NCBI GenBank assembly: GCA_000961765.1 | Contig: LADT01000054.1 | Span: 1 to 64,000, forward strand | Length of the DNA: 64,000 bases | Origin: Clostridiaceae bacterium BRH_c20a | Lineage (GTDB): Bacteria > Bacillota > Peptococcia > Peptococcales > BICA1-8 | Direction: 5' to 3' | Shown: positions 8,226-10,047 of the stretch, piece after piece | Layout of the letters: each line of letters begins with the position of its first letter | How positions within the stretch are numbered: position 1 is the first letter of the stretch | Notes under the pieces: model-generated | Seen by the model: the letters and a program-made list of their open reading frames with translations, nothing else | Database searches by the model: none | Told to the model about the DNA's origin: nothing | Translations under genes and position numbers: made by a program

Positions 8226-8238
8226 AGGAGGGGAAATC
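8226..8238 (+). promoter_or_regulatory. Strong ribosome binding site followed by ATC rather than ATG
   Basis: The AGGAGGGG at 8226-8233 is the best ribosome binding site before the PAS-SpoIIE gene, and the in-frame codon at 8236 is ATC. The first ATG (8329) is almost 100 bases further and has no ribosome binding site. Confidence 0.55.
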
Positions 8239-8328
8239 TTCGAAAATATTAATAGTTCTACTAAACAACTTGAAATAATAGATAGTGAGGAACATTTCTA
8301 CAGTCTTTTTGAGAATAATCATATTGTT

Positions 8329-10047
8329 ATGCTGATAATTGAGCCGGAGACAGGAAACATTATCGAGGCTAATTCTAAGGCTTGTAATTTCTATGGTTAT
8401 TCTAAGACAGAGATGCGGTCAAAAAAGATAACTGATTTTAATACCTTGACTAAGAAACAAGTTTTTCAAGAGATGGAAAAGGCCCACTCTGAGCAAAGGA
8501 ATTTTTTTATTTTTCAGCACTGTTTAGCAAACAGTGAATTTCGTGATGTCGAGGTCTATAGTGGTCCCATTAGGATTAATAATAAAAATCTACTCTATTC
8601 AATTATAATTGATATTACACAGCGGAAAAAAGCAGAAGCTAAAGCTTTAGAGTATTCTAAACTCCTAGAAGGGGTTTTGCAGGGTGTAGCTGATATTATT
8701 GGGGTCTATAAACCCGATCATTCTATTGTTTTTTATAATCAGGCTGGATATGATTTTTTTAATGCGACCAAAGAAGATATTAAGGGCAAAAAATGCTTTC
8801 AAATGCTAGGCAGGGTTATGCCATGCCAACTCTGTGGAGTAGAAAAGAGCAGGAGTAGTAAAAAATTGGAGCATTTTGAAAAGTACATGCCTGAAATTGA
8901 TAGGTTTATGGACTGTCATTACAGCCCGATCCTCGATGAAAATGGGGAGGTAATATTAGTAATAGAACAATTAAGGGATATTACTGAACAAAAAAAGAAT
9001 GTAGAAGCACTTAGCCGTAGTGAAGAACGCTATCGGAACTTATTTGACCTCTCTCCTGATGGAGTTGGTGTGCTACGAAAAGGACAGATTATTATTACCA
9101 ATAATAAACTAGCGTCAATTTTGGGAGTTGAAGACCAAAAAGATTTACTGGGCAAGTCAATTTTTGATTTCATCCACGAGGATTATATACCTACTGCTCG
9201 GCAAAGGATGAAAAAGGTTATGGTCGAGAAGGGTACTACCAATTTAATGGAATTTAAATATATAAAAGCAAATGGGAAGGGTATAGATGTAGAGGTTGCT
9301 GCCTCTCCCCTAAGTTATCAGGGTAAACCTGCTATACAGTTCGTTGTTAGAGATATTACCGAGCGCAAGAAACAATTAGAGCGAGCTGCCTTAATCCAGC
9401 ATCAACGTTTAGATACAAAGTTTCCTTTGCCGGATAAGGCGTTCTTAGAAATAGTTTATGAAGCCGCAGATACCATAAGTGGCGACCTCTTTCACTTCTA
9501 TAAGATCAATGAAACTAAGGTGCTGGGTTTATTAGGAGATATAAACGGAAAGGGTGTTTCGGCTGCCCTTTCAGGCTCTGCGCTTAAGGTATTGTTTTAT
9601 GAGATTGCCTCCACAATCTCCAATCCCTTGGAAATACTTAACTATTTAAACCAGGAGGTTCCAGAGTATCTTGGCGAGGAATACGTAGCGGCATCCTGCT
9701 TTAGCTTGGATTTTGAAAAAGGCGAGCTTGTAATTTCCGGGGCAGGTATTAACAGCTTTATGTATTACAAGAACAATTTTTATTGTGTTGAGGATACTGT
9801 TAAAGGACCTTCTTTAGGCATGTTAGAGATAAGTCTTTTTGAGGAAAAGAGGTTTAGTCTTAACCCGGGTGATAGGTTTTATTTTTATTCTGATGGATTA
9901 GAGAACTTTTTTACTACTCCACATATATTTAATGAATTCAAAGAATACAAAACAATTGCCCAACAAAAGGAATTTTTGGCTGATATTTTCTCGAAAAATC
10001 CCTCTTTGAAGGATGATGCCACCTGGCTGGCTATTGAAATAAAATAA
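8329..10047 (+). CDS. PAS-domain sensor with SpoIIE-type PP2C phosphatase
   Basis: At least 572 residues: three PAS modules (about 1-95, 105-220, 230-345, with ITQRKKAE, ITEQKKN and ITERKKQ linker ends) and a SpoIIE/RsbU-like phosphatase (about 355-570; metal-site motifs SGDLFHFY, GDINGKGVSAAL, SDGLENFF, DDATWLAIE). It likely dephosphorylates an anti-sigma-factor antagonist in response to a signal; no partner is nearby. The reading frame is open upstream to 8224, and the missing N-terminal PAS segment (HFYSLFENNHIVM) is encoded there. The AGGAGGGG at 8226-8233 is followed by ATC at 8236, not ATG. The true start is therefore probably a non-AUG codon at 8236, or the start has been lost. Confidence 0.8.
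   Translation: MLIIEPETGNIIEANSKACNFYGYSKTEMRSKKITDFNTLTKKQVFQEMEKAHSEQRNFFIFQHCLANSEFRDVEVYSGPIRINNKNLLYSIIIDITQRKKAEAKALEYSKLLEGVLQGVADIIGVYKPDHSIVFYNQAGYDFFNATKEDIKGKKCFQMLGRVMPCQLCGVEKSRSSKKLEHFEKYMPEIDRFMDCHYSPILDENGEVILVIEQLRDITEQKKNVEALSRSEERYRNLFDLSPDGVGVLRKGQIIITNNKLASILGVEDQKDLLGKSIFDFIHEDYIPTARQRMKKVMVEKGTTNLMEFKYIKANGKGIDVEVAASPLSYQGKPAIQFVVRDITERKKQLERAALIQHQRLDTKFPLPDKAFLEIVYEAADTISGDLFHFYKINETKVLGLLGDINGKGVSAALSGSALKVLFYEIASTISNPLEILNYLNQEVPEYLGEEYVAASCFSLDFEKGELVISGAGINSFMYYKNNFYCVEDTVKGPSLGMLEISLFEEKRFSLNPGDRFYFYSDGLENFFTTPHIFNEFKEYKTIAQQKEFLADIFSKNPSLKDDATWLAIEIK

Follow-up and report, generated by a model that had tools for sequence, protein, structure and literature searches.

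A PAS-SpoIIE phosphatase gene that may start at a non-canonical AUC codon behind a strong ribosome binding site

The sequence of the window (the whole stretch of 64,000 nucleotides analysed here) suggests that a gene for a SpoIIE phosphatase with three PAS domains is intact and that its only usable start is non-canonical, with the AUC at 8236 as the best candidate, a reading to which we give slightly less than an even chance. The start may be of a rare, weak kind already known in bacteria, or the region may record a very recent loss or a sequence error. Gene finders limited to ATG, GTG and TTG would place the start at 8329 and thereby truncate the first sensor domain. Use of AUC would add a signalling phosphatase to the handful of genes whose expression is held down by a poor start codon. 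The features concerned are the following.

7373–8056, minus strand: divergent GntR-family regulator, a neighbour in the G003 relative too (frame list, relative's neighbourhood)
8182–8192, plus strand: TTTGTCTAAAA, common to the G003 leader; candidate promoter or regulator site (alignment with G003)
8221–8223, plus strand: TGA stop that opens the frame of the PAS-SpoIIE gene (sequence reading)
8226–8233, plus strand: Shine-Dalgarno-like AGGAGGGG, aligned with the G003 start ATGATGGG (sequence, alignment)
8236–8238, plus strand: ATC, proposed non-canonical initiator, 4 nt past the GGAGG core (sequence, spacing counts)
8239–8241, plus strand: TTC at the commonest Shine-Dalgarno spacing (7 nt), another place where a start codon may have been lost (sequence, spacing counts)
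8290–8433, plus strand: first PAS domain, PAS_8 (Pfam match)
8329–8331, plus strand: first ATG of the PAS-SpoIIE frame, within the PAS_8 match (frame list, Pfam)
8689–8994, plus strand: second PAS domain, PAS_4 (Pfam match)
9058–9363, plus strand: third PAS domain, PAS_9 (Pfam match)
9517–10041, plus strand: SpoIIE/PP2C phosphatase domain with SGD, GKG, DG and DDxT motifs (Pfam, alignment)

The frame that opens after the TGA runs from 8224 to 10044 on the plus strand, is closed by a TAA at 10045–10047, and encodes three PAS domains and a SpoIIE/PP2C phosphatase according to Pfam. After the TGA its codons read TTA GGA GGG GAA ATC TTC GAA AAT ATT and so on to the ATG at 8329. An earlier sequence-only reading had described the frame as open from 8224, with ATC in place of the expected ATG. 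We confirmed this: ATG, GTG and TTG are all absent from the 35 codons that span 8224–8328, and 8329 is the first canonical start. That reading was also right to doubt 8329 as the native start and to place the beginning of the PAS domain upstream of it. The PAS_8 match covers frame residues 23–70, from 8290, so that 8329 (residue 36) falls inside it; conserved residues that align with G003 lie upstream, and no Shine-Dalgarno motif was found 3–13 nt before this ATG. In a product begun at 8329 the best PAS_8 match in Pfam is lost, but three PAS_9 stretches remain, as does the phosphatase domain; it would therefore be shortened or damaged, not stripped of the domain nor obviously dead.

From the ATC at 8236, 603 codons are open, and past the leader they align with G003 without gaps. 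The SGD, GKG, DG and DDxT motifs, which we take to be metal ligands, are common to all four aligned sequences. With these acidic motifs intact, membership of the PAS plus SpoIIE class is borne out by Pfam and alignment. Like RsbU-type PP2C phosphatases, the protein has PAS sensors fused to SpoIIE and the common motifs, and its orthologs in G002 and G004 lie near an RsbW-like (HATPase_c_2) gene. It differs in that no RsbW-like partner-switching gene is adjacent in the window, an intact one being found on another contig of the same genome (C28 of G000); such a neighbour is frequent in the class but does not define it.

The claim of a strong ribosome binding site followed by ATC at 8236 was upheld by background counts, made in 1.43 Mb sampled of the 4.51 Mb genome. 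Outside called genes, and with start-preceding sites excluded, AGGAGG occurs at 0.00028 per strand-position, or ~0.3% per 11 positions, and a chance Shine-Dalgarno sequence at 8226 is therefore unlikely. Of 408 AGGAGG sites in DNA outside the called genes, 128 have the canonical start of a coding frame 3–13 nt downstream. Spacing was examined in 226 frames of the same sample with GGAGG 1–18 nt ahead of the first canonical codon. It was 6–8 nt in 145 of them and 4 nt in 7 (1 of 42 in an earlier, smaller sample); ATG stood at 4 nt in 5/179, and TTG at 7 nt in 8 of the 32 TTG-started frames with GGAGG. An AUC at 4-nt spacing could work but would be badly placed, and judged by spacing the loss of a TTG from 8239–8241, where TTC now stands, has as good a claim as the loss of an ATG from 8236. 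AGGAGGGGAAATC occurs once more in the genome, where AATG comes next and puts the start at 8 nt. The coding signal amounts to 2.72 bits over the four codons before the ATC (8224–8235), 0.68 bits over the ten from 8236 to 8265, and 4.03 bits from 8266 to 8328. As the signal before the ATC exceeds that just after it, the start is not placed by coding signal.

No genome of the same genus was present among the 60 relatives searched, and a single genome-contig scan, from which very near records may be omitted, found only a 43% relative. The best ortholog belongs to G003, of the same family (67–68% identity; 68% over residues 15–606). Next to it lies a divergent GntR gene as in the window, and likewise the next gene beyond, which in both we take to be aminotransferase-like. 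The residues encoded before 8329 align with G003, G002 and G004, QLEIIDSEEHFYSLFENNHIVM matching QQKILAESEGCFLSLFENNHVVM of G003. All three of these nearest orthologs start with ATG, so the proposed non-canonical codon is not conserved in relatives, a trait that would lend support to such a start but does not define one. The ATG of G002 and G004 lies ~13 nt past a Shine-Dalgarno-like stretch by hand count, and the G003 start reads ATG ATG GGA GAT with TAGGTG upstream.

The DNA between the GntR and phosphatase genes is homologous in the window and G003, with a score of 100 against 27 ± 8.6 for 200 shuffles. Conservation of this region (8057–8192 in the window) is chiefly in the GntR-proximal half, which contains a promoter-like TTGCCA-N16-TAGAAT site on the minus strand, and in TTTGTCTAAAA. 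After TTTGTCTAAAA the local score is 37, a value reached by 9 of 2000 dinucleotide shuffles, and AGGAGGGGAAATC of the window is aligned on ATGATGGGAGATC of G003. By hand count, the distance from TTTGTCTAAAA is 33 nt to the AGGAGG of the window versus 32 nt to the ATGATG of G003. The two ATG codons of G003 thus fall on the AGG AGG bases of the window, a position 10 nt upstream of the ATC and out of frame with it. From the aligned start to the common codons at 8266, G003 has 38 nt more than the window (also counted by hand); as this number is not divisible by three, the leaders differ in reading frame. With its Shine-Dalgarno sequence on the start-codon bases of G003 and its leader in another frame, the start region of the window differs from that of G003 by more than one base change. 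Of the explanations originally offered, an AUC initiator, a lost ATG and a base error all stand; a plain one-base ATG-to-ATC change is not the picture that G003 gives.

Other genes without a canonical start were sought by a screen of the window's genome, in which 35 of 871 coding frames were flagged for coding signal ahead of the first canonical codon. The screen catches only frames whose first canonical start lies at least 12 codons past the onset of coding signal, and its counts of start-less genes are therefore lower bounds. Flagged frames were judged by eye, and two overlapping sets of 8, one of them from a smaller screen, were viewed in detail. Four of the 871 appeared to have a Shine-Dalgarno-like stretch and a non-canonical codon at the protein start: the PAS-SpoIIE gene (ATC), comB (ATT), an orphan (ATT) and a pyrC-like gene (ACG). 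The remaining flagged frames resembled split genes or an ordinary later start, or were ambiguous. Applied to other genomes, the screen flagged 8/228 frames in G003, infC being one, and 3/239 in G037; none of the latter was recognised by eye as of the non-canonical-start type. The suggestion that start-codon use sets this genome apart was rejected, as 4/871 shows no clear difference from 1/228 (infC) in G003 and 0/239 recognised in G037.

The essential gene infC, which encodes IF3, is known to start with AUU, AUC or AUA and to be autoregulated. It lay outside the screened sample of the window's genome and was picked up unprompted in G003. In G000, G002, G003 and G004 it reads GGAGG TGA CAA/AAA ATT ATT AGC (CAA in G000, AAA in two of the others) without a canonical start. 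The PAS-SpoIIE gene resembles it in having a non-canonical start behind a strong Shine-Dalgarno sequence, infC having only ATT in these four genomes. The two differ in that the infC ATTs lie 6 and 9 nt past GGAGG and are shared within the family, whereas the PAS-SpoIIE codon lies at 4 nt and its relatives have ATG.

In comB, for 2-phosphosulfolactate phosphatase (G000:C40:20206-20928; L158), an ATT follows a Shine-Dalgarno-like stretch with no ATG, GTG or TTG nearby. The aligned codon is ATG in G004, TTG in G003 and ATT in G001 (L162), where it is codon 11 of the frame and the first canonical codon is codon 34; ATT thus occurs in two genera. It is not universal in comB, since G007 and G002 have a canonical codon shortly upstream of the aligned ATT and all seven more distant comB frames have one in the leader. 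The orphan (G000:C40:62122-62961; L156) has 280 codons, opens with AAAGGAGG-N7-ATT and has no Pfam match; ungapped extension places the ATG of its 39% paralog on C19 one codon past its ATT. The dihydroorotase-like (pyrC-like) gene (G000:C61:37505-38848; L126) has ACG at the position of the G003 ATG, and a second copy, 47% identical, lies on the same contig.

Against this background we weighed three other explanations of the PAS-SpoIIE start. A recent loss of the start codon, by substitution at 8236–8241 or by a small deletion, would leave the gene silent or nearly so. Relatives carry ATG, and G003 has an additional trinucleotide, CTG, between ATC and TTC, 7 nt past the equivalent of GGAGG, so that a start codon could have been deleted in the window; several other genes of the genome also look split. 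However, 603 open codons with the common motifs mean that any such loss is young, the Shine-Dalgarno sequence is strong and undecayed, and the other start-less genes of the genome include the essential infC. We consider such a loss quite unlikely. An assembly error, whether of a base or a small indel, that masks an ordinary start is, in our estimate, a little less likely still. There is one assembly only, in 92 contigs, with no near relative for comparison, and a single miscalled base, at 8238 or at 8241, would be enough; but the prior per base is low, and with 35/871 frames flagged against 8/228 in G003 and 3/239 in G037 the assembly is not an outlier. The least likely of the three is a start elsewhere, whether at 8329 (the first ATG, whose product has a shortened PAS domain and retains its PAS_9 stretches and phosphatase), at ATT 8248, at ATA 8275 or 8278, or through the TGA at 8221 from the in-frame ATGs at 8203 or 8212, because 8329 has no Shine-Dalgarno motif and would forfeit conserved residues, ATT 8248 stands 16 nt past GGAGG, a distance not reached by any of the 226 first starts, and 8203 overlaps a TATAAT-like box and by eye has no Shine-Dalgarno sequence before it.

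Searches of the leader for other signals were negative. There was no Rfam match to a riboswitch or known RNA in 7900–8500 up to E = 1, and a special leader fold was rejected (z-score 0.27; 115 of 200 shuffles fold equally well). No sigma-70 promoter was found for the PAS-SpoIIE gene, and one minus-strand match fits the GntR gene. A pattern common to the window and G003, AGGAWTT-N(10-12)-TGTCTAAA, has two matches in the genome; as the other lies inside a CRISPR-like array, the idea of a regulon was dropped. Likewise, an initiator tRNA with an altered anticodon was discarded as a candidate on the basis of 20 regions, viewed by eye, out of 60 tRNA matches in the genome (C45 and C65:152433 are not among the 20; C5 and C7 carry tRNAs for Leu and Ser): the four CAU tRNAs and one GAU tRNA-Ile in them look ordinary.

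Weak initiation at AUC, favoured by the strength of the ribosome binding site and kept in check by IF3, is the reading we tentatively prefer, at a probability just below one half. In favour of AUC are the lack of a canonical start, the strong Shine-Dalgarno sequence, the open frame, the conserved residues before 8329 and the other ATT and ACG starts in the genome. Against it are the 4-nt distance to GGAGG (7/226), compared with 7 nt for the ATT of the orphan and 6 and 9 nt for those of infC, the ATG starts of G003, G002 and G004, and a coding signal that does not place the start. A 30S subunit would be held at the strong AGGAGGGG site, AUC would be a poor match for the standard CAU initiator tRNA, and IF3, which by eye looks ordinary beside that of relatives, would discard most of the resulting complexes, so that the phosphatase level would be low and IF3-dependent. 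We infer that AUC is used and repressed by IF3, and that a low dose may be the purpose of this arrangement. A phosphatase that triggers a partner switch would be a sensible low-dose gene, as the RsbW-like genes near the G002 and G004 orthologs and on a G000 contig suggest. A fuller version, in which the gene is translated solely from AUC and under the control of IF3, its start region has been rebuilt to put a strong Shine-Dalgarno sequence on the start-codon position of a relative, and it joins infC, comB, the orphan and the pyrC-like gene in a set dosed by the IF3 level, seems doubtful to us. Should AUC be used, this lineage would offer several such genes, comB with its ATT in two genera among them, for a joint test of IF3 control.

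Comparable starts have been reported in other bacteria. PMC5472188 describes Streptomyces sigR as starting with GTC behind AGGAGGTG under repression by IF3, and gives ATT as the infC start of E. coli and ATC as that of Streptomyces. The sigR gene resembles the present gene in its extensive AGGAGGTG Shine-Dalgarno sequence, its lack of a usable canonical start and its nature as a dosage-sensitive sigma-factor switch gene; in contrast, its GTC was proven by mutation and Western blot and occurs in 32 of 34 species, whereas the present gene encodes a phosphatase and its candidate start is not shared by the relatives seen (PMC5472188). In S. aureus, according to PMC13009471, AUU and AUA starts with an extended Shine-Dalgarno sequence (cvfC1, ccpN) give ~10% of AUG output in poor medium, and ccpN up to 30% in rich medium. 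Both cvfC1 (AUU) and ccpN (AUA) share with our gene a strong extended Shine-Dalgarno sequence and a poor codon of the kind that lowers expression; they differ in being backed by ribosome profiling, conservation and appropriate spacing (PMC13009471). Expression of a B. subtilis AUC start mutant persists at a much lower level (PMC10303841), and AUG-to-AUU switches are very rare (1 of 61,358 reconstructed AUG starts, 36 genome groups; PMC5622118). Among the matches listed from the open-licence literature, there was no case of a PAS-SpoIIE gene with a non-canonical start.

Several loci of other kinds were also seen. At 52538–53366 of the window, an AGGAGG-led start, which we take to be CheW-like, stays open for just 17 codons, and the MCP signalling domain (PF00015) behind it lies in a different frame; the locus looks like a deletion or fusion pseudogene. 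At L076 (minus strand) and L064 (G000:C24 near 46.6 kb), a presumably cas1-like gene appears to be split by a frameshift, and C24 carries a CRISPR-like repeat array.
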